Part shown: positions 2,750 through 53,771 of the stretch, piece by piece | How positions within the stretch are numbered: position 1 is the stretch's first letter | Layout: every line of letters begins with the position of its first letter | Assembly (NCBI GenBank): GCA_030765065.1 | Contig: CM060978.1 | Span: 59,052,421 to 59,116,420 of the forward strand | From: Deroplatys truncata | Taxonomy: Eukaryota > Arthropoda > Insecta > Mantodea > Mantidae | DNA length: 64,000 nucleotides | Reading direction: 5' to 3' | Made by a program: the position numbers and the translations under genes | Notes under the pieces: generated by a model | Database searches by the model: none | What the model saw: the letters and a program-made list of their open reading frames with translations, nothing else | Told to the model about the DNA's origin: nothing

Positions 2750-4782
2750 ATGAATTTGACTAGAGAACATCTCTGGGGTATGACTTTTTACGATTTTAAA
2801 TTGTCATTAACGCATAAACAACGTGAGATCAGCTTAGAAATGAATTTGGCAAAGAAGTCCCATCTAAGGCAACAATTTATAAGGGAATTCAAAAGACATC
2901 GGTTGTTTCTTAGTGAGAATATCGTGAAGGACGAAAGAAGAAAGGGCCAGGAATGCTGTTACTGATGCAAAGATTGCCGCTGTTCAAGCAATGCTTGAAG
3001 AAGACCGACGGACAAGCTATCGATTCATTCGAATGGCATTAAGCATTGGTATGAGTCAAATCCAAAACATTTTACATCAACAGTTAGACGTAAGAAAACT
3101 TTGTTGTGATGGATTCCACATAAACTGGCTCCCAATTGAGGCAATGTTTTTAACACTTAAATGATTTCAGTCTAATTATATAATGTGTAAATTCAATAAC
3201 AGCCCGGCTTGAAGCAATATGTGTATGTAATAATTTGTAAAGTGTATGTAACAGTCATTGCATATGGTTATATTATTGTAAACATGTTCAATAATGTTAT
3301 ATGAATGCATTACGTAATTTAATAATGTAGGAACTGTGAGAAATAGGTCAAAAGTTGCTAACAATGAGGTAACTTTGAGGCAATCATGAATTTGAAAGTT
3401 TAAATGCTACTAGACATTATTGGAGCAACAATAATGTAAATTTTGAGACAGTTTAAAAATAGACAATGAACAGCCAGAAAAATCTTTAGTTAAATGAAAG
3501 TATTCTATTGGAGTAGAATTAGTCAATCAGAGACTTGAATATACAGAAATTTACAAGCTTAGGCGGTTGAAATCAATTCAGTTACCTGCAGACAGTGATT
3601 GTAACCGGATGCAAGATGCGTCCTCGAGAGATTTAATATGTATTCGTGTGAGACGAAAAATAGTTTTACGTGTTAAAAAGTGCAATTAATTAATAAAAAG
3701 AATCTCACAGCTCTCTATATCAGTGAAGTGTTATTTTAATCGTATGAAGTATTAATAAAAGAAGTGAAGTAAAATTATAATCTTTGTAAGCCTACATTCT
3801 TGTCGCATCACGCCCTGCTAAGAGAAACGTGTCTCTAACAATAATACTGACGCAGCCGAGGCAAACATAAATATTTAATACTTAAAGAAACAGTCAAATT
3901 ACAAAGTTAATATTTTTTTAAACTTGGGGCAAAGACCACCTGAAAGTACATTTGGGGCGAAGGCTACCGGAAACCGGGTACCATACGTGCGGTTGCAAAC
4001 GCACTTTAAGTTTGCCTCCCCAACAGTTGAAATACGACACAATTCCTTCTAAAATACACCTTTATCACAACAAAAAATAAAACGTACTGATTGGTGCAGA
4101 AAAATCTGTAAACTCCAAGGCGGCACTTCATATTTGTTTTGGAATATCACTGCTGATGAATCCTGGATTTATTGAAACGATCCTTAAAAGCAAGGTCAAT
4201 CGGCTCAATGGGTATTTCGAACTGACCCTATGCCTACAGAATTCCGAAGAATTCGCAGTGCTGATAAGAGGATGGTTGCTATCTTTTTTTTTCTAAAACG
4301 GACCATATTGCTACTATAGGATTAGAAGATAGACGTACGGTTACTGCCAATTGGTACACACATGTCTGTTTACCGCAGATTTTTGAAAAAGTTGATTATA
4401 AACGCCCAAAAGGAAAAATAATGTTACATCATGACAACGTATCGTTACATAAGGCAAATCTGAGTATCTGGATACCATAAAGGTCAACACCATATACCCC
4501 CACCATACAGCCCTGACCTAGTACTTTGTGATTTCTTTTTGGTTCCAAAAATTAAAGATAAAATGCTGTAATCAGTTTTTCGTCTTTAGAGGAAGCATTA
4601 CAAATACCCGTTTCTGAAATGCCTCAGGAAGAGTGGCATCATTCCTTTAAGGACTGGATTCATCGAATGCAAAACTGTATTGATATAAAAGGGGAATGGT
4701 TTGAAAAACAATAAAATCATTTTAATTTTTATAAAACTAATCCTTGTTTGATTTTCTAAAAATGGTCATTGTTACTCTCGTA
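2750..4782 (+). pseudogene. mariner-type transposase relic, interrupted
   Basis: The N-terminal part (MNLTREHLWGMTFYDFK, 2750-2965) resembles the mariner start MxLTRExxRxM. Coding similarity continues out of frame to about 3132 (IPHKL), then stops at an LTR-like insertion, and resumes at about 4068 with KRTDWCRKI and the catalytic-type motif ITADESWIY. Later pieces read MLHHDN (second catalytic region) and a tail near 4700. The right end ACTCTCG followed by TA at 4781-4782 fits a mariner terminus (reverse complement TACGAGAGT). Several stops and frameshifts make it inactive. The left terminal repeat is not visible; Helentron fragments lie there. Confidence 0.7.
3137..4067 (+). mobile_element. 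LTR-like unit A, copy 1
   Basis: A 931-bp unit starts TGAGGCA and ends TCA. It splits a mariner reading frame and is flanked by CAAT / CAAC, a possible 4-bp target duplication with one mismatch. It contains AATAAAAG polyadenylation-like signals and the block GCAGCCGAGGCAAAC shared by other copies. Four further copies start at 11528, 28118, 46305 and 52851. The TG...CA ends suggest a solo LTR. No gag or pol frame is attached to any copy. Confidence 0.6.
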
Positions 4783-4794
4783 AAATGTTGTTGT

Positions 4795-6176
4795 TGTTCA
4801 CCAATGGCACTGGGGATTAATTTATCTGCATCATTTTCCCTCTGGCTTCCCAATATAAAGTCTGTAAGTTATCAATTTTAAGGCCTTTGCATTTGGTGAG
4901 ATGCTCTTTGTTCAGGATGACATCTTCTTTATAGAGAGTGCACTTGGGTGTAGGTAGGAACGTATCTTGTAGAGGTGTTCTGCGAGGCAATCGTGCCCAG
5001 TTGCCATGCTGAATAAGGCCACTGCAGTTTTCCTTGGCATTTTTACTTTCTCTATTACGTATAGTAAGTAGGGAAAGTATTGTATTTCACCCAAAAATTA
5101 GATACGAGATTTCACCATAAATACATGTTTTGAAACCCCCTGAATCCGGAAAAAAGCATTTTTGGAAACATGTCCGTGTGTGTGTCTGTGAACAGCATAA
5201 CTCAGAAACGAACAGTTGGATAAACACCAAACTTGGTATTTAGGTTCAGTATCTTCCAGAGATGCGACACGAAGGTTTTCAAGAAAATCCCCCACCCCAG
5301 ATTACCCTTTACATGGAACATTTTTCGAACATTTTAATTTTCTTAAAAATGGCTCTAACGATTTTAATTAAAATATCATATGTTTAAGATATTTTTATGA
5401 CAAATGAAATGTATATCTCGAATTTTCTGGGAGTGTTTCCAAAAGTGTTCTTCATTGTAAACGACTTTTGCATAACTGGTAAACCATAAGAGAGACAAAA
5501 TTTTACTACACAAAAAATATAGGACGCGTTAAAATACACAATTTATGTTATATATATATTATTTTCTGTTGTTGTTGAGTGAACCATTTTCGAGATATTG
5601 CCTGTTATTCCCTTAAATTTTCCAATACTTATACTGTTTCTCAAATTCGATATCCATTTTTTTGTCCTGGTAATGCAAAGAGAATGGAATACTCCACATA
5701 GCAACCACCTCTTAAAATATTTGACTATCGCTTAAAGCCTAGAAATCCACCCTTGCATCTACAAGAAAATTAACAATAAAATTAACATCTCGATATCTCG
5801 ATTAACATGAAGCATATGGAGAATAAGCGTTTGTAAAAATAGTTTGTACAAGAGTAGAGAAAATCATGTGAGTGTAACACATAAGATTTTTTGTAAATTA
5901 AGTCTATCTTTAATATTCTTATAATCTTTATCTTTTAATTTATCTTCTTCGTCAAGTCTCTGCTGTCTTTTCAAATGCTGTTTAATGTTATCTAATTGTT
6001 TATTTATTTGTATTTGTGCTGAAGGTTTTAATTGTTGTATTGCACCTTTTTTTGCTAATTGATTCGCATGTTCATTGCCCAAAAGTCCAACATGATTTTG
6101 GATCCATTGTAGTGTGACATGATTTCTAGTTTCAACTGCTTTAATTAGGCTTCTTACTCGTAAAATTATAACACAT
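4795..6176 (-). pseudogene. LINE ORF2 relic (RNase H and C-terminal zinc knuckle)
   Basis: On the minus strand, 6176-5887 encodes an RNase H segment (VTLQWIQNHVGLLGNEHANQ, then LAKKG), typical of non-LTR retrotransposons. After a Helentron insertion at 5045-5886 the frame resumes as MPRKTAVALFSMATGHDCL, carrying the TGH motif, and then KEHLTKCKG, a degraded C-terminal CCHC region. Removing the insertion joins LNLQK to MPRKT in frame. Upstream reverse transcriptase and endonuclease parts are absent, consistent with 5' truncation. Confidence 0.7.
5045..5886 (-). mobile_element. Helentron-like element, full length, inside a LINE
   Basis: A complete copy of about 842 bp in reverse orientation runs from ACTTTCTCTATTACGTATAG to GTGTAACACATAAGA. 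The left flank is a T-run (5041-5044) and the right flank is TTTTTT, so the target was a T-run (A-run on the LINE strand). It interrupts the LINE ORF2 relic, so it is younger than that LINE. Confidence 0.7.
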
Positions 6177-6235
6177 AAACTGCACGAAGCACCTAATGGG
6201 AATGAACAATGAAGGAATACCAAAAAGAGCCCTCC

Positions 6236-8056
6236 TATACAGGGTAAATCACATAAAACTTGCACCGCAAATGTTTCGGAAATGGAAATTGATGTGCAAT
6301 TCTCACAGCATTGATTGTTAGTCAGGGGCTTGTACATTTAGCCTATAAACAGATTTAAATAATAACGAGAAAGTGTATTTTTTGAGCAAACATACAATTT
6401 TTAAATGGACCAATGCCTAGTTACATCAATAGAATAAAGGTAGGGTAAATTAGAATGTCAATGGTATTTGTGGCAGGATTCTAGTGCAAGTGGTTTACGA
6501 GAAATCGTATTTTGAAAAGTTTCCACCCCGACAATTGTTTGTCCCATTCAACCTGTTTAGTTGCTAGGTACGATGTTGTTATGCGTGTTTGCATTGTGTT
6601 TTCTGTTCATTGAGTGCATTGTGACTTTCTGGTCACTTAGTTTGTGACAGTTCAAGCAGTAAGTCGAGAGTGGAAGATGGGGTTTACTAATGCAGAAAAA
6701 GCCGACATGCTCATGGTGTATGGAGAGTGTAGGAAGAATGCAGTTCCTTCCTGTACGGTGTATGCGGAAACGTATCCCAATAGACGTTAACCATCTCGCC
6801 AATTATTTATCAACCTTTACAACCAATTACGTGAAAGGTACTGTAACACCTAGAAAACGTAACAGAAACAAACAAGTGACTGGAAAAGAGGCAGAAATTA
6901 ATGTTTCGGCTGCCGTTGCAGTAGATCTGCAAATTAGTTCCCGCTTAATTGCACGTGGAATGGCATAAGTCAGGCAAGTGTACTGCGCATTCTCCATCGA
7001 TATAGGTTCCATCCCTATTACATCTCTCTCCAAGAGCTGCATGGCAACGATTTTGAGAGCCGTGTTAACTTTTGTACATGGGCATTAAGACATGATACTT
7101 CAGATTCATCATGTATCTTGTTAAGTGATGAGGTAACATCTACTAATCATGGCCAGGTAAACCGCAGAAGCATGCACTATTGGCCTGTTGACAATCCCCG
7201 TTGGCTTCACCTGGTGGAAACGTGTGGTGTGGAATAGCGAACCATCAGCTCATAGGCCTTTTGTTCATAGAAGGACAATGAATTCGTACAAGTATCGCAG
7301 CTTCCTGACAGACCATCTGCCGCAGATGCTAGAAGACGTTTTTTTTGCAGACTAGGAGGAACCTGTAGTACCAACATGATGGTTGTCCAGCCCATAGTGC
7401 ACGAAGTACTACAGCTTGGCTTAACGAATTGTTTCCAAATCGTTGGATTGGACGAAGAGGACCTGTACCCCTTTAGACATTTTTCTGTGGGGAAGGCTGA
7501 AAGACACTGTCTACAAGGATGTACCAACTACAGCAGACGATATGAAACGACGCATTACTGCTGACTGCTCTGAAGTTTCCGCTGAAATGCTAGAACGTGT
7601 TCAGCAATCTTTCCATAGCAGACTGGAAGCGTGTATTGAAGCTGCCGGTGGTCATTTTGAACACAATCTTTGAAGGGCTATGTTCTCTTTACTTGTAAGA
7701 ATCCGCAGAAATATTGTAAGTCCCTTTTGTTTTTCTTTAGTTTGTGCTACCACAGGTTGTATAAGTGTCGGTGCGTAAAAGTTTCAAAATAAGATTTCTC
7801 GTAAACCACTTGCACTAGAATCCTGTAACATACACCACTGACATTCTAATTTATCCTACCTTTGTTCTGTTGATGTAACTAGGCCTTGTTCCATTTAAAA
7901 AAATGTATGTGTGCTCAAAGAATACACTTTCTCAGTATTATTAAAATCTATTCATAGTTTCTGACTACCAATTAATGCTGTGAAAACTGCACATCAATAG
8001 TACTTTCCAATTCCGAAATATTTTCGGGGCAAGTTTTAGGTGATTCACCCTGTATA
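6236..8056 (+). mobile_element. Tc1/mariner-type transposon with 0.3-kb inverted repeats
   Basis: Long imperfect inverted repeats span about 6236-6527 and 7777-8056. Both begin TATACAGGGT and share GTGCAAGTGGTTTACGAGAA and TTACATCAA. The TA duplicated at both ends and the rescue of the flanking LINE frame fix the boundaries. The element is close to 1.8 kb and carries one broken transposase gene. Long inverted repeats beginning TACAGGGT are common among insect IS630/Tc1/mariner relatives. Confidence 0.8.
6677..7673 (+). pseudogene. Tc1/mariner-type (IS630 superfamily) transposase
   Basis: It begins MGFTNAEKADMLMVYGECRK, an N-terminal helix-turn-helix region I recognise from insect transposases. 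Further recognisable parts are ASVLRILHRYRFHPYY, LLSDEVTSTNHGQVNRRSM (first catalytic Asp region), TTADDMKRRITADCSE and a C-terminus RLEACIEAAGGHFEHNL with stop at 7671-7673. The frame shifts repeatedly from the first 150 bp onwards, so it cannot make a working protein. Length without lesions would be about 330 residues, usual for the family. Confidence 0.75.
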
Positions 8057-11232: not shown

Positions 11233-12601
11233 GAAGTGAAACTTCTTAGGTGGTAACATTTGTTGATGATTTTATTATTTCAGGATTACGAAACAATTTG
11301 TGGAATTTCTTAATTTAATGATTCTTTTATTCATCAATTCTTATTAATTTTTACTATAGGAAAGAAATTATGGGTATATGATAGCTGAAGTATTGTTTCT
11401 CCCTCTCTTTCTTTTCAACTGCCGGTTTTAAGTAGAGAGGGGGAAGCGTTTCACTTTTCGTCTGATCCAGGCCAATTTACCACAGTACACGTGGCGCATG
11501 CATGTAGAGTATAACGTATGCGATAACTGCCAGCAGTATTTTTAACACTTAAATGATTTCAGTATAATTATATAATATATAAATTCAATAACAGCCTGTC
11601 TTAAAGCAATTTGTATGTACCAATATATAAAAAGTGTATATTACAGTCATTAGGTATGTTTATATTATTGTATACATGTGTAATAATGTTATGTGAATGT
11701 ATTACGTAATTTAATAATGTAGGAGCTGTGAGAATAATGGGTCAAAAGTAGCTAACAATGAGGTAACAATGCGGTAAGCTTAAGGAAATAATGAAATTGA
11801 AACTTTAATAATGTTACTTGTGATTCTTGGAAGCAATAATGTAATATTTGTGACAGTTTATAAAACAGCCAATCAACAACCAGAAAAAGCTTTAGTTAAA
11901 TGAAGGTATTCTATTGGACTAAATTAGCAAATCAAAAACTAAAATGGAGCAAAACTTACAAATTCAGAAGTCAGTTGCTTGTAGGCAGTGTTCCTAACCG
12001 GACGTGAGATGCGTTCTCGAGAAATTTAATACGTATTCGTGTGAGACGAAAATAGTTTACGTGTTAAAATGTGCAAGTAATTAAAATAAAAAATCTCACA
12101 GCTCTCTCTATAACAGTGAAGTGTTATTTAAATCTTGTCAAGCATTAATAAAAGGAGTGAAGTAAAATTATAATCTGTGTAAGCCTACATTCTTCAGTCG
12201 CACCACTCCCTGCTAAGACATTCATATTTCTAAAAAAATATAAATACTGACGCAGCCGAGGCAAACATAAATATATAATATTTAAAGAAACATTCAAAAT
12301 TACAAACTTAATATTTTTAAACTTGGAGCGAAGGCTACCGGAAACTTTTTACCATACGTGCGGTTGCAACTACTTCAAGTTCGGCTCCCCAACAGTAGAA
12401 ATATAATACATCTTCAAACTGACTTTCCATACGTAGCAGCAACAAACCTTCTTCAAATTGGCTCCCAAAACGTGGGGCAAATAACAATACAACTCCTTCA
12501 TACAACAAAAAAATCATTCTTCAGCTGGAGAAGGGGAATCGTTTCACTTTTCGTTTCATCCAGGCCAACTTGCGCTACCGCGCCTAAAGAAGTTTCACTT
12601 C
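11233..12601. mobile_element. possible TIR transposon holding LTR-like unit A2
   Basis: GAAGTGAAACTTCTTAGGTGG at 11233-11252 (first 20 bases) is inverted at 12574-12601. A second stretch, GTTTCACTTTTCG plus ATCCAGGCCAA, appears in direct orientation at about 11450-11480 and 12540-12570. The block is probably a non-autonomous DNA element, interrupted by the LTR-like unit. No transposase or clear target duplication is visible. Confidence 0.4.
11528..12523 (+). mobile_element. LTR-like unit A, copy 2
   Basis: A 996-bp copy from TGCCAGCAGTATTTTTAAC to CATTCTTCA. It holds CCAATC boxes (near 11865 and 11930), AATAAAAGG, GCAGCCGAGGCAAAC and two primer-binding-site-like strings at its right: TTCGGCTCCCCAACAG and TTGGCTCCCAAAACGTGGGG. 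The latter resembles the complement of an insect tRNA-Lys 3' end. The flanking four bases do not match. Confidence 0.6.
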
Positions 12602-13010: not shown

Positions 13011-13029
13011 TGCAACACATCAAATTTTT

Positions 13030-13782
13030 ACTTTCTCTACTACGTATAGTAAGTAGGGGAAGTACTCCACCCAAAATTCGATACCGAGATTTCACCCAAA
13101 ATGCATATTTTGAGGCACCCTGAATCCAAAAAAAACATTTTTGTAAAAGTTCCTGTATGTGTATGTGTGTCTGTGTTTGTATCTGTGAACAGCATAAGTC
13201 AAAAACGAAAACAGATAAATTCAAAATTGGTATTTAGATTTAGTGTCGTTCAAGGATGCGACACGAAGGTTATCAAGAAAATCCTCCGCCCCAGACTACC
13301 CTTTACATGAACATTTTTCGATAGTTTTGATTTGCTCAAAAATGGCCAACGATTTTGATTAAAATATCACATAGTTAAGATGTTTTCATGACAAATGCAA
13401 CGTATATCATGAATTTTCTGGGAATATCCCCAGAAGCCCTCTTCATCTGAATGACTTTCGCATAACTGGTAAACCGTAGGAGATAGATGAAACTTTTGTA
13501 CACAAAAAATATAGATCTCGTTAAAACACACAATTTATGTCATATACATTGTTTTTGTGGAGTGAACCATCTCCAGGATATTCCTTGTTATCTGTTTGAA
13601 TCTTCCAATACTTATAATTTTTCTCAAATGGGAATTCGTTATTCGCTTTTACTTTCTCTACTACGTATAGTAAGTAGGGGAAGTATTACATTCCACCCAA
13701 AAATTCGATATCCAGATTTCACCGGAAATACATGTTTTGAGACCCTCTGAATCCAAAAAAGGCATTTTTGGAAACATGTCCT

Positions 13783-13816
<34 letters not shown>

Positions 13817-14755
13817 CGCGCCTGTGTCTGAACAGCATAACTCAGAAACGAACAACTTGGTATTTAGGTATTTAATACCAAACTTGGTATTTAGGTTCAG
13901 TGTCTTCCAGAGTTGCGACACAAAGGTTTTCAAGAAAATCCCCCCACCCCAGATTACCCTTTACATGGAACATTTTTCGAAAATATTAATTTTCTCAAAA
14001 ATGGCTCTAACGATTTGGATTAAAATATCATATGTTTAAGATATTTTTATGACAAGTGAAATGTATATCTCGAATTTTATGGGAATGTCTCCAAAGGTAT
14101 TCTTCATTGTGAACGACTTTTGCATAACGTAAACCATAAGAGATAGACAAATTTTAATACACAAAAATGTAGATCGCGTTAAAATACACAATTCATGTCA
14201 TACACATTTTTTTGTTGAGTGAACCATTTTCGAGTAATTGCTTGTTATTTCCTTAAATTTTCCAATACTTATACTTTTTCTCAAATTCGTTATTCAATTT
14301 TATTGTCCTGGTAATGCAAAGAAAATGGAATACTCCACATAGCAACCAGCTCTTAAAATATTTGACTATAGCTTAAAGCCTACCAATTCCCCTTGCATCT
14401 ACAAGAAAATTAGCAATAAGATTAGCGTCTCCATATCTCGATTAACATGAAGCATATGGAGACTAAGCGTTTGTAAAAATAGTTTGTTCAAGAGTAGAGA
14501 AAGTCATGTGAGTGTTACACATCAGATATTTTTATGTCCTGTACATGTAAAAAGAATGGAATGCTCCGCATAGCAACCAGCTCTTAAGAGTTGACCATCA
14601 CTTAAAGCCTACCGTATTCCCCTTGCATCTACAAGAAAATTAACAAAAATATAGTTTCTGCAAATGCTTATCTCGATTGACATGAACTAGATTTGTTTAA
14701 GCGTTTGTAAGAATAGTTTGTACAAGAATTTAGGAAGTGATTCAGAGTTTTAACG
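13030..14755 (-). mobile_element. Helentron-like copy A, hosting copy B
   Basis: Copy A runs from ACTTTCTCTACTACGTATAG at 13030 to GGGAATTCGTTATTCGC at about 13646. It is then interrupted by copy B and resumes at 14527 with TATTTTTATGTCCTGTACAT, the expected next sequence of the family. It ends at a decayed 5' terminus near 14755. Confidence 0.7.
13651..14526 (-). mobile_element. Helentron-like copy B, nested in copy A
   Basis: A complete 876-bp copy from ACTTTCTCTACTACGTATAG to GTTACACATCAGA. It sits in the T-run of copy A with no extra bases and no obvious target duplication. Its microsatellite is (TG)n followed by (CG)n at about 13784-13821. B must be younger than A. Confidence 0.75.
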
Positions 14756-26134: not shown

Positions 26135-27387
26135 CTAGGGCCACTATTTATATTTTGAGCCTTGGCAACCCTGAATGTTGTAGGTGCCATCTGACGTTTC
26201 CAATGGAAATTTTGACATTTTTGACCATAATCTACTTCAAACATTTTGTCAATAGAGCTCCATTTGTTTTGTTTACACTAACTTGAAAATTGTGTGTCAA
26301 CAAAAACATGGAATTAACTCGTGAAAATGTTCGTGCAATGATTTGTTACGACTTTCGACGTCGATTATAAAGACAAGAGTGCATCGATCAAGTAACTTCC
26401 ACATGTGCCACTGTGAAACGCTGGTATAATGAATTTAATCGTGGCCGCCGTTCGCTCAATGATGAAGTTCGTGAAGGTCGTGCCAGAAAACATTGATGCT
26501 GTGCAAAAACTAATAATCAAAAATCGTCATGCGACATATTGCGAGACTGAGGTAACCCTAGGCATTAGTTCCACCAGCATATATAAAATATTGCATGATT
26601 ATTTAGCCGTGAAAAAGGTTTGCTCTCGTTGGATCCCAAATAATTTGACGTCATCTCAAAAAGATGCTCTTGTCGATTGATGTACAAAAATGCTCAAGAA
26701 ATACAATGGCGGTGTCTCAAAACACGTATATAAGATTGTAACGGGTGACGAATCATGGATCTATGCGTATGAGCCGAAACGTAAACAGCAGTCGACTGTA
26801 TGGGTGTTTCAAGATGAAGCGAATCCCAAAAAAGTTGTTCGCATCAAAGCACTTCAAAGCAAATGGTTGTCTGCTATTTCAGCAAAACTGGCCATGTGAC
26901 AACAGTGCCTTTAGAGGAACGTAAAACAGTCAATGCCGAATGGTACAAAACCATTTGTTTGCCGGAAGTCTTCGGTGAAGTAAGGAAAACCAACAAGAAC
27001 CGTAGGATCATTCTTCATCAAGACAATGCGAGCGCACACACACCTCGTCTAACAACAGAGTATTTGAAGGATCAAAAAATTGAATTGATGGGTCATCCGT
27101 CATACAGTCCTGATTTGGCACCCAATCACTTCTGTTTGTTCCCGAACATCAAGAATAAATTGCGTGGACAACGATTTTCGTTTGCAGAAGAAGCCGTTGA
27201 TGCCTTCAAACACCATGTTTTGGAGGTGTCTCAAGAAGACTGGAATAAATGCCTTGACAAATAGTTCAAACGGATGCAAAAGTGCACTGATCATAAATGA
27301 AAATATTTTGAAAAACAATAAAGCAGTTTTCAATCAGAAATTACTTTGTTTTAATTATTAAGCTCCAAATATAAATAGTGCCCCTCG
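26135..27387 (+). mobile_element. mariner element, complete ends
   Basis: A 1253-bp element with inverted termini of about 27 bp: left CTAGGGCCACTATTTATATT and right AATATAAATAGTGCCCCTCG. TA flanks both sides (26133-26134 and 27388-27389). Size and single transposase frame fit the mariner family. No other copy is present in the window. Confidence 0.9.
26308..27300 (+). pseudogene. mariner transposase, inactivated
   Basis: It begins MELTRENVRAMICYDFRRRL and hits a stop at codon 21. Later parts, in shifting frames, are RWYNEFNRGRRSL, ISSTSIYKILHDYL, VTGDESWIYAYEPKRKQQS (first Asp, codon at 26747), IILHQDNASAHT (second Asp, 27022) and YSPDLAPNHFCLFP. The residue 35 positions after the second Asp, where the D,D34D triad needs Asp, is His (codon CAC at 27127). 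Trp-to-stop changes occur at about 26678 and 27262. Intact relatives are about 345 residues. Confidence 0.9.
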
Positions 27388-27760: not shown

Positions 27761-28784
27761 GGATAATGCTGCTTTACGCACCGTATGTATTTTGAAGTCA
27801 AAGGCATTTAGTGAGTTACAAGTACACAATCAGGTAAGTCAAAGAAAGAATCATCATATTTGGGGGAAGGCCAGAACTTCACAAGGCAATTATTACTTAT
27901 GAGATTTGCAAGCCTTTTTGCTCGTAGCTCTCCAACATTTTTTAAATCTGTTATATGCAATTTTTAGTCGAAAGGAATACTTTCTCTACTTTAGGTAAAC
28001 ATTTATGGCAGAGGAAACGTGGCATACACCAAGCCGTGTGTACCAAAGAATTATAGAAAATCTTTTGCGATTTGACCTCGCAGAACGAAATTAAAATATG
28101 AAGTATTTAATAGTAATTGAGGCAGTATTTTTAACACTTAAATAACTTGAGTCTAATTATATAATATGTAAATTCAATAACAGCCCACCTTGAAACAACA
28201 TGTGTATGTAATAATTTTTAAAATGTGTGTAACAGTCATTGCATATGGTTGTATTATTGTAACCATGTTTACTAATGTTATGTGAATATATTACGTAATT
28301 TAATAATGTAGGAGCTGTGAGAATAATAGGTTAAAAGTTGCTAACAATGAGGTAACAATGAGGTAACATTGGGGCGATAATGAATTTAAAATTTTAACAA
28401 TACTACTTGTGATTCTTCGAAGCAATAATGTAATTTTAGTGACAGTTTATAAAAATAGCCAATCAACAATCAGAAAAATCTTTAGTTAACTGGTGGTATT
28501 CTATTGGATTAGGAATAGCCAATCAGAGACTTAAAATAAAGAAATTTATAAATTTAGGCAGTAAAATCAAGTCAGTTGCTTGTAGACAGCGCTCATAACT
28601 GGACGCGTTGCTTATGAAGTGTTCCTAATCGGACGCGAGATGCGCCCTTGAGAAATTTAATACGTATTCGTGTGTGACGAAAATAGTTTACGTGTTAAAA
28701 AGTGCAAGTAATTAGCAAAAGAATCTCACAATTCTCTTTATCCGTGAAGTGTTATTAATATCGTATCAAGATTAATAAAAAAAA

Positions 28785-29698
28785 TCTGATGTGTTACACT
28801 CACATGACTTTCTCTACTCTTGTACAAGCTATTTATACAAACGCTTATTCTCCATCTACTTACTTCATGTTAATCGAGACAATCATTTGCAGAGTCTATG
28901 TTATTGCTAATTTTCTTGTAGATGTAAGGGGAATGTATATTTACAAGGGCAATTTGGAAATACTTTGGAAGCCTTTAAGCACATACATATCTCTTAATAG
29001 CTGGTTGCTAGGTGCAGCACCATTCCCTTTCCCACAGATTAATACTCTTTGCATATCCAAGACAAAAAAATGAATAACGAATTCCCATTTGAGAAAACAA
29101 GTATTGAAAAATTTAAGAGAATAACAAGTAATATCTCGAAAATGGTTCACTCAACAAAAAAAATGTGTATGACATAAATTGTGTATTTTAACGCGATCTA
29201 CATTTTTGTGTAGTAACATTTTGTCTATCTCTTATGGTTTACCAGTTATGCAAAAGTCGTTCACAATAAAGAATACTTTTGGAGACATTCCCAGGAAATT
29301 CAAGATATACATTTTATTTGTCATAAAAATATCTTAAACATATGATATTTTAATCAAAATCGTTAGAGCCATTTTTGAGAAAATTAAAATTTTCGAAAAA
29401 TCTTCCATGTAAAGGGTACTCTGTGGGTGGGGGATTTTCTTGAAAACCTTCGTGTCGCATCCCTGGAAGATACTGAACCTAAATACCAAGTTTGGTGTTT
29501 ATCTGACTGTTCGTTTCTGAGTTATGCTGTTCACAGACACACACAGAGGCACAGACACACACACGGACATGTTTCCAAAAGTGCTTTTTTTGGATTCAGG
29601 GGGTCTCAAAACATGTATTTCCGGTGAAATCTCGGTATCGAATTTTTGGGTGGAATACAATACTTCCCCTACTTACTATACGTAGTAGAGAAAGTAAA
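28785..29698 (+). mobile_element. Helentron-like element, best reference copy
   Basis: A complete 914-bp copy inside LTR-like unit A3, which fixes its ends. It begins TCTGATGTGTTACAC; a 12-bp subterminal repeat ACTTTCTCTACT lies 22 bp in (28807-28818). A (CA)-rich tract sits at about 29537-29572. The 3' end is a hairpin (29661-29696), followed by AAAA. It has no coding capacity for a Rep/helicase. Subterminal inverted repeats, a microsatellite and a 3' hairpin next to the end are the published hallmarks of Helentrons and their non-autonomous DINE-1/HINE relatives. A TIR-based MITE is the alternative. Confidence 0.7.
29661..29696 (+). other. 3'-terminal hairpin of the Helentron-like family
   Basis: Arms TACTTCCCCTACT (29661-29673) and AGTAGAGAAAGTA (29684-29696) flank the loop TACTATACGT. 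Eleven of 13 positions pair on this strand; on the other strand the two mismatches become G-T wobbles. The second arm is also the exact inverse of the 5' subterminal repeat, so either end can pair with it. Confidence 0.8.
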
Positions 29699-30079
29699 AA
29701 AGTGAATTAAAAATTAGAATCTGTGTAAGCTTACATTCTTCAGCCGCATCACGTCCTGTTAATAAATTCATGTGTCTAAAAAAAAAAAAAAAATACGACG
29801 GAGCCGAGGCAAACACAGATATATAATATTTAAAGAAACAATCAAAATTACAAACTTAATATTTCTTTAAAAAAAACTTTTTTCGGGACGAAGGCTACCG
29901 GAAACATTTTACCATACGTGCGGCTACAATTACTTCAAGTTCGGCTCCCCAACAGTTGAACTACAATATAACACCAACTTCAAATTTGCTTTCCATACGT
30001 GAAGCAACAAACCTGTTTCAAATTGACGCCCAAAAACGTGGCGCAAAAGACGCAAAGATGCTATTTACTTCAAGACAGC

Positions 30080-52850: not shown

Positions 52851-53771
52851 TGAGGCAGTATCTTTAACACTTAAATGATCTCAGTATAATTGTATAATAT
52901 AAATTTAATAACAGCCCGCCTTAAAGCAATATGTGTATGTAACAGTATATGAAAAGTGTATATTACAGTCATTGTAAATGTTTATATTATTGTATCCATG
53001 TAACATTGTTATGTAAATGTATTACGTAATTTAATAATGTAGGAGCTGTAAGAGTAATAGGTTAAAAGTTGCTAACAATGAGGTAACAATGAGGTAACCT
53101 TGAGGCAATAATGAATTAGAACGTTTAAATGTTACTTGTGATTCTTGGAAGCAATAATGTAATTTTAGTGACAGTTTAGAAAATAGCCAATCAACAACAA
53201 GATAAAGCTTTAGTTAAATGAAAGTATTCTATTGGAGTAGGATTAGCCAATCAGAAACTTAAAAGGAGAAACATTTACAAATTGAGAATTTAGTTGACTG
53301 TAAACAGTGTTCCTAACCGGACACGAGACACGTCCTCGAGAAGTATAATTCGTATTCGTGTGAGACGAAAATAGTTTACGTGTTAAAAAGTGCAAGTAAT
53401 TAATAAAATAATCTCACAGCTCTCTATCAGTGAAGTGTTATTTAAATCGTGTCAAGCATTATTAAAAGGAGTGAAGTAAAATTATAATCTGTGTAAGTCT
53501 ACATTCTTAGTCGCATCACAACCCTGCCAAGACATCCATGTCTCTAAAATAAATACTGACACAGCCGAGGCAAACATAATATTTTTAAATTTCTTGACGA
53601 AGGCTACCGGGTATCATACGTGTGGTTGCAACTACTTCAAGTTCGGCTCCCCAACAGTTGAACTACAATACAACTCCTATAACAAAATAATTTCTTCAAA
53701 TTGACGCTCAAAGTGTGGTGCAAATAACGTAAAGATACTATCTACTTCCAATTTGCTTCCAAACGTGGGGC

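Follow-up and report, generated by a model that had tools for sequence, protein, structure and literature searches.

The repeat described here is very probably a HINE of about 0.75 to 1.0 kb, located on the minus strand from 29699 to 28785 of the window (the whole stretch of 64,000 nucleotides analysed), which would have been spread by the Rep-helicase-endonuclease of autonomous Helentrons carrying the same ends in this genome. Its layout, its abundance, the ends and domains of a candidate partner, insertion into T-rich sites and nested composites were observed directly. This type of element, a small non-autonomous rolling-circle transposon, is ordinary, but its number is unusually high, and our analysis adds the candidate partner, a corrected polarity and the nested head/tail composites. 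The class proposed in the preliminary description of this DNA, a non-autonomous, DINE-1-like Helentron, is well supported by the layout and by a Rep/helicase partner with the same ends.

Read along the minus strand, the copy has the order TTTT-ACTTTCTCTACT-(10 bases)-AGTAGGGGAAGT ... TG-rich tract ... AGTAGAGAAAGT-C-ATGTG-AGTGTAA-CACAT-CAGA-T-run (Table 1), and the element, or the T-run housing it, extends to 29699-29701. The plus strand reads TCTGATGTGTTACACTCACATGACTTTCTCTACT, i.e., TCTGATGTG...ACTTTCTCTACT, at positions 28785 to 28818, where TCTGATGTG is the complement of the element's 3′ end, and AGTAGAGAAAGT, the exact inverse of ACTTTCTCTACT, at positions 29684 to 29695. The 12-base repeat with an exact inverse at the far end, which had been reported at the outset, was thereby found again in the window sequence, as was the (CA)n tract. 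The latter lies in the 5′ part of the element and is present both in the window copy and in the consensus of 30 sampled copies, to which the window copy is 92.8% identical. At 12 bp, the subTIRs fall within the HINE criterion of 11 to 15 bp, one being near-terminal at the 5′ end and the other clearly internal at the 3′ end. Among 31 non-redundant complete copies, the 5′ and the 3′ subTIR are each exact in 25 and both are exact in 22, while the IR arm AGTAGGGGAAGT is exact in 24. The region 29662 to 29695 folds into a hairpin. Its outer arm is the subTIR itself; the inner arm, AGTAGGGGAAGT, pairs with it through two G.T wobbles among its base pairs.

Table 1. Positions in the window of the HINE copy, its parts, its paralogous empty sites and a nested pair
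Feature	Position	Strand	Remarks
Whole HINE copy	28785..29699	−	True 5′ end 29699, true 3′ end 28785
5′ subTIR ACTTTCTCTACT, TTTT ahead of it	29684..29695	−	Exact inverse of 28807-28818
IR arm AGTAGGGGAAGT	29662..29673	−	Pairs with the 5′ subTIR: 10 Watson-Crick pairs and two G.T wobbles
TG-rich microsatellite (CA-rich on the + strand)	29532..29566, approximate limits	−	
Internal T-run (GTTATTCA-T7-GTCTTGG)	29064..29070	−	Equivalent site in other copies is an insertion target
3′ subTIR AGTAGAGAAAGT	28807..28818	−	
3′ stem-loop ATGTG-AGTGTAA-CACAT, then CAGA and Ts	28789..28805	−	Stem complementary in 29 of 31 copies
Paralogous empty site of the window copy	3696..3817	−	84.8% identity to the joined flanks
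Second paralogous empty site of the window copy	12088..12212	−	82.5% identity to the joined flanks
Third paralogous empty site of the window copy	53405..53519	−	83.2% identity to the joined flanks
Nested pair	13027..14526	+	HINE head 13027-13650, complete HINE 13648-14526 in its internal T-run, host tail after

Judged from the candidate partner, whose open frame points in the minus-strand direction of the window copy and which has both ends in common with it, the orientation first assigned to the element is inverted, and the element runs from 29699 to 28785. A partner was required to fix the polarity, since the assignment of 5′ and 3′ ends to DINE-1 is arbitrary without ORFs, as stated by Yang and Barbash in 2008 (PMC2374699). 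One Helentron reported by Thomas et al. in 2014 (PMC4067079) has its frame in the opposite direction; for the window HINE, layout and partner frame agree on the direction. The published order of DINE-1 elements is a subTIR, a partly complementary inverted repeat, a microsatellite, a 3′ subTIR and a stem-loop (PMC2374699, PMC4067079), and by its place in this order the self-repeat hairpin corresponds to a standard part of the DINE-1/HINE layout. The hairpin, taken in the preliminary description for the 3′ end, is thus the element's 5′ end. The role in termination suggested for it was likewise assigned to the wrong end, because the hairpin is the published 5′ inverted repeat; it is more likely to mark the 5′ end for recognition than to act as a terminator. 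The short stem-loop at the actual 3′ end had been overlooked. This correction matters for annotation, as the conspicuous hairpin is the 5′ end and the inconspicuous stem-loop is the putative functional one at the 3′ end.

The host genome assembly comprises 4.29 Gb in 818 contigs. Allowing up to two mismatches, ACTTTCTCTACT occurs 48 times in the window against 7.97 expected, a number reached in none of 100 shuffles. Over the 4.29 Gb, the single end pattern TCTGATGTGN{5,20}ACTTTCTCTACT has 165,999 matches (83,336 + 82,663), and the reversed pattern used as a control has none. About 25 copies had initially been estimated for the window. Sequence resembling the family consensus, diverged fragments included, does make up 22.9% of it, and many decayed fragments are present, but at the thresholds used we counted only 14 hairpin ends, 8 TCTGATGTG ends and 7 pairs of both ends, one of which spans 2275 bp. 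To assemble the copy set, 2 segmental duplicates (the second copy in L009 and one of the two in L016) were removed from 33 rows, leaving 31 copies, and the 2275-bp pair was further set aside for the consensus. The latter is 857 bp long, and the 30 contributing copies are 75.8 to 97.4% identical to it. As the 20 sampled genome regions were picked around exact end matches, with one more taken for an array, copy density in them does not stand for the genome average. A literature search with the letters of ACTTTCTCTACT returned matches that were unrelated according to their titles and the beginnings of their abstracts, and a search for Helitron or DINE-1 in cockroach found none.

A search for a Rep/helicase partner bounded by these two ends yielded a candidate. 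At least 152 matches to PF14214 (Helitron_like_N) were obtained in the host genome, a lower bound with 150 of 291 candidates scored, versus none in any of 14 control genomes. Among the matches listed, 30 lie in open frames of at least 1000 aa and are stop-free, and 18 of these frames exceed 2000 aa; such long open frames thus coexist in one genome with the 165,999 exact end-pattern matches. The copy at C4:200717500-200732499 has a single open frame of 2324 aa in the minus-strand sense of the finding. DUF6570, Helitron_like_N and PIF1 were recognized in the part of this frame that lies in L029. For the last 265 aa of the frame, Exo_endo_phos_2 scored just above the cut-off (27.9 bits, cut-off 27.4); Exo_endo_phos did not reach its own (19.0 versus 24.5), neither profile came up in a scan of the longer protein at E 0.001, and a comparison of the endonuclease end with PDB sequences gave a single, uninformative match, at E 0.47. 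In the translation, PHEHMFFWL resembles the HUH motif and YIIKYISK the tyrosine motif of Helitron Reps, and GDFNFD and SDHKPI resemble endonuclease motifs. The N-terminal 575 aa match Herpes_teg_N (E 7.2e-10; L030:3-1727, minus), a cysteine-protease-like domain dissimilar to the Rep/helicase core. The frame also contains a charged repeat region with a unit of about 21 aa, and 11 of the 18 listed frames longer than 2000 aa are 2261, 2324, 2345, 2387 or 2408 aa long, lengths that differ by multiples of 21. A second group of Helitron_like_N sequences scores better (E down to 1.5e-54; e.g., C1:38116489-38117034); many of its members have stop codons, and it is probably an older or different Helitron lineage.

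Compared with the window HINE, the partner has 91% identity across about 766 columns at its 5′ end and 94.6% across its last 37 bp. The ten partner copies sampled were all picked for long frames out of the at least 152 PF14214 matches. In all nine further copies, for which both ends were fetched, the 3′ end is the same, and it is identical over 60 bp in eight of the nine, which speaks against the possibility that Rep-bearing copies would have acquired HINE ends merely through adjacency. HINE and partner share an identical 5′ subTIR and, at the 3′ end, the 11 bases GTAGAGAAAGT. According to the rules given in PMC4067079, at least 11 identical subTIR bases define a family and 80% identity over 60 bp defines a subfamily. 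The HINE and the sampled partner would therefore belong to one Helentron family under the 11-base rule. Over the last 60 bp, they have 45 identical positions in a 66-column alignment, below 80%, which would place them in separate subfamilies, so that the direct partner of the HINE may be a different one from that sampled.

The target of the element is T-rich. Among the matches listed, at least three paralogous empty sites of the window copy were found in the window itself, with 82.5 to 84.8% identity, and an empty unit corresponding to a copy in a tandem array of contig C1 was found at 95% identity. The paralogs of the window copy present a C followed by four Ts at the insertion point, and the C1 unit presents five Ts. 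The base ahead of TTTT is a T in 28 of the 31 copies, and the next base out is A or T in 23, which matches the preference for WT|TTT reported for DINE-1, where insertion occurs past the second base of WTTTT (PMC2374699, PMC4067079). The T-run on the left is exactly 5 in 19 of the 31 copies, and that on the right varies from 0 to 12. In the C1 case, 5 Ts became 5 + 5, which is explained equally well by Ts brought in with the element and by a 5-base duplication of the target Ts; the same ambiguity is found in published DINE-1 work (PMC2374699, PMC4067079). The C1 array lies at about 15 to 120 kb (L001 to L009), with 29 listed end matches spaced by about 3.4 kb, apart from one double step; its repeat unit contains a HINE, which one unit (L009:1665-1787) lacks. 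For the HINEs of L016 and L019, the host DNA itself is arrayed, and the flanks match 168 and 98 to 99 times in the sampled DNA.

The T-runs are also what could suggest a MITE-like cut-and-paste element with subterminal inverted repeats, a poly-T target-site duplication and a DDE transposase: many of the 19 copies with exactly five left Ts have five or more on the right, and the C1 insertion is formally a 5-base T duplication. We nevertheless regard this class as very improbable. The same ends are borne by long Rep/helicase frames, one of the inverted repeats lies about 22 bases from its end with a stem-loop outside it, as in Helentrons, and the only mixed-sequence repeat beyond Ts at the insertion flanks is TTC, in 1 of the 31 copies. 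A 133-aa open frame on the plus strand of the window (26863 to 27264) resembles, by eye, a mariner-type transposase fragment; it has no adjoining HINE end in the stretch read, and the lone ACTTTCTCTACT motif at 27979 is accompanied by no other part of the element in the 501 bases examined. A canonical Helitron would share with the HINE its rolling-circle class and a Rep/helicase partner, but it should have a 5′ TC, a 3′ CTRR and an insertion site between A and T. These features were tested and did not fit: 30 of 31 paired copies have TNTT before the 5′ subTIR-like repeat and CAGA or a close variant followed by Ts at the 3′ end, no CTRR end is present, and the target is T-rich. The partner moreover carries an endonuclease domain, scored just above the cut-off. 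We consider this class extremely improbable, even less probable than the cut-and-paste one, and retain a HINE mobilized by Helentrons.

The arm shared by the two ends had been proposed to let the 3′ end pair either with itself or with the 5′ end. Taken alone, the 5′ end folds into a hairpin of −5.7 kcal/mol on the top strand of the element (z −3.18; 2 of 200 shuffles) and of −3.2 kcal/mol on the other strand (z −1.33; 19 of 200), the difference arising because the wobble pairs are confined to one of the strands. The folding energy of the 3′ stem-loop was no better than that of shuffles (z −0.82; 38 of 200); support for this putative structure comes from the complementarity of its stem in 29 of 31 copies and from a location like that of published ones. 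When the whole strand was folded as DNA in a protein-free model, the 5′ subTIR paired with the 3′ subTIR with a mean probability of 0.95 to 0.97, versus 0.01 to 0.02 with the IR, and the duplex energies were −12.2 kcal/mol for subTIR/subTIR and −7.1 kcal/mol for subTIR/IR. Covariation lent no support to selection on pairing: in 33 distinct 5′ ends, 93.6% of the cells were paired versus 93.2% in shuffles (51 of 500 reached the observed value), and one pair had a double change versus 0.6 in shuffles, while slid control versions paired in 44.7 to 66.4% of the cells. This test is weak because the rows are for the most part decayed copies belonging to a single family. The alternative pairing of the shared arm thus has support from thermodynamics and none from covariation.

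Earlier proposals exist for the pairing of subterminal repeats (PMC4344730) and for the 3′ stem-loop as a terminator (PMC2374699); the exchange between two pairing partners as a signal is our own suggestion. A rather speculative and improbable extension is that the three copies of the repeat form a strand-specific switch that signals a complete, peeled-off element to the Rep protein. As long as single-stranded DNA is confined to the 5′ end, the subTIR there would fold on the weaker, wobble-containing IR; the 3′ subTIR, once exposed, would displace the IR and pin both ends together. If so, the IR would be kept imperfect for its displacement by the 3′ subTIR.

The internal T-run of HINEs itself serves as a target for HINE insertion. 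In 2 of the 31 copies, the insertion sits in a host T-run with the host head and tail on both sides (the nested pair in the window and L024 5837). One further copy has a host head only (L017 1876) and four have a host tail only (L010, L014, L020 and L021), giving 3 heads and 6 tails among the 31 copies. An apparent head in L014 was left out of this count because its match showed it to be host flank. In a pattern search for such junctions, 3 of 8 head hits and 8 of 14 tail hits were taken as real by eye. Consecutive 3′ ends are also found, four in L021 and three in L029. Of the 10 sampled autonomous copies, 8 have an extra 5′ head with one identical inner junction. The sequences outside vary from copy to copy, both on the 5′ side, where the flank could be seen in 7 of the 8, and on the 3′ side.

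These composites would fit rolling-circle movement in which a single 5′ end serves as the start and an available 3′ end, sometimes beyond the first, as the stop. We infer that nicking by the partner protein takes place at the T-rich 5′ end and that one strand is peeled off in the 5′ to 3′ direction, normally up to the 3′ subTIR and the short stem-loop, the product then joining into a T-run. A start at an outer 5′ end, or a run past the first 3′ end, would make two-head or multi-tail units from nested insertions; tandem clusters arising through missed termination are discussed in published DINE-1 work (PMC2374699, PMC4067079). The composites, and only they, might alternatively result from unequal recombination between nested copies rather than from a choice of start and stop ends. 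Nested copies in the same direction provide the repeats needed for this, and one copy clearly lies within the 3.4-kb tandem array. Yet the single inner head junction in 8 of 10 autonomous copies with differing flanks looks as if a double-headed unit had moved, and we regard recombination as a serious but less likely source. If they reflect start and stop choice, the nested composites may preserve a record of the ends that served, so that end choice by Helentrons could be studied statistically in this genome.

The closest known systems share most of this organization. In the descriptions of Drosophila DINE-1/INE-1 cited here (PMC2374699, PMC4067079), the elements similarly have subTIRs of 12 to 13 bp, a second, partly complementary inverted repeat beside the 5′ subTIR, a microsatellite, a stem-loop past the 3′ subTIR and a T-rich WT|TTT target, and they are noncoding and very numerous. 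They differ in the sequence of the subTIR, in the 3′ stem (5 bp here versus 7 to 11 bp), in the bases ahead of the 5′ subTIR (TTTT here versus 0 to 2 bp) and in the central repeat array, which the sampled copies lack. The HINEs of Crassostrea gigas, as presented in PMC7492417, have a 5′ subTIR with a complementary IR 1 to 12 bp away, a microsatellite, and a 3′ subTIR followed by a palindrome; unlike those found here, the oyster elements have satellite-like central arrays, and both sequence and host are different. The lepidopteran Hel-2 Helitrons of PMC4344730 also combine an inverted repeat at the 5′ end, a microsatellite, a 3′ hairpin and subterminal inverted repeats for which pairing has been proposed, but their termini are 5′ TC and 3′ CTRR and they lie between A and T. 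The candidate partner resembles the autonomous Helentrons of PMC4067079 in its Rep-helicase-endonuclease order, with the endonuclease C-terminal, and in the kind of ends, and differs from them by its N-terminal Herpes_teg_N-like domain and by the extra 5′ head in 8 of 10 copies. Elsewhere in the window, a 157-aa open frame on the minus strand (5864 to 6337) contains a stretch that resembles, by eye, a retroelement RNase H.
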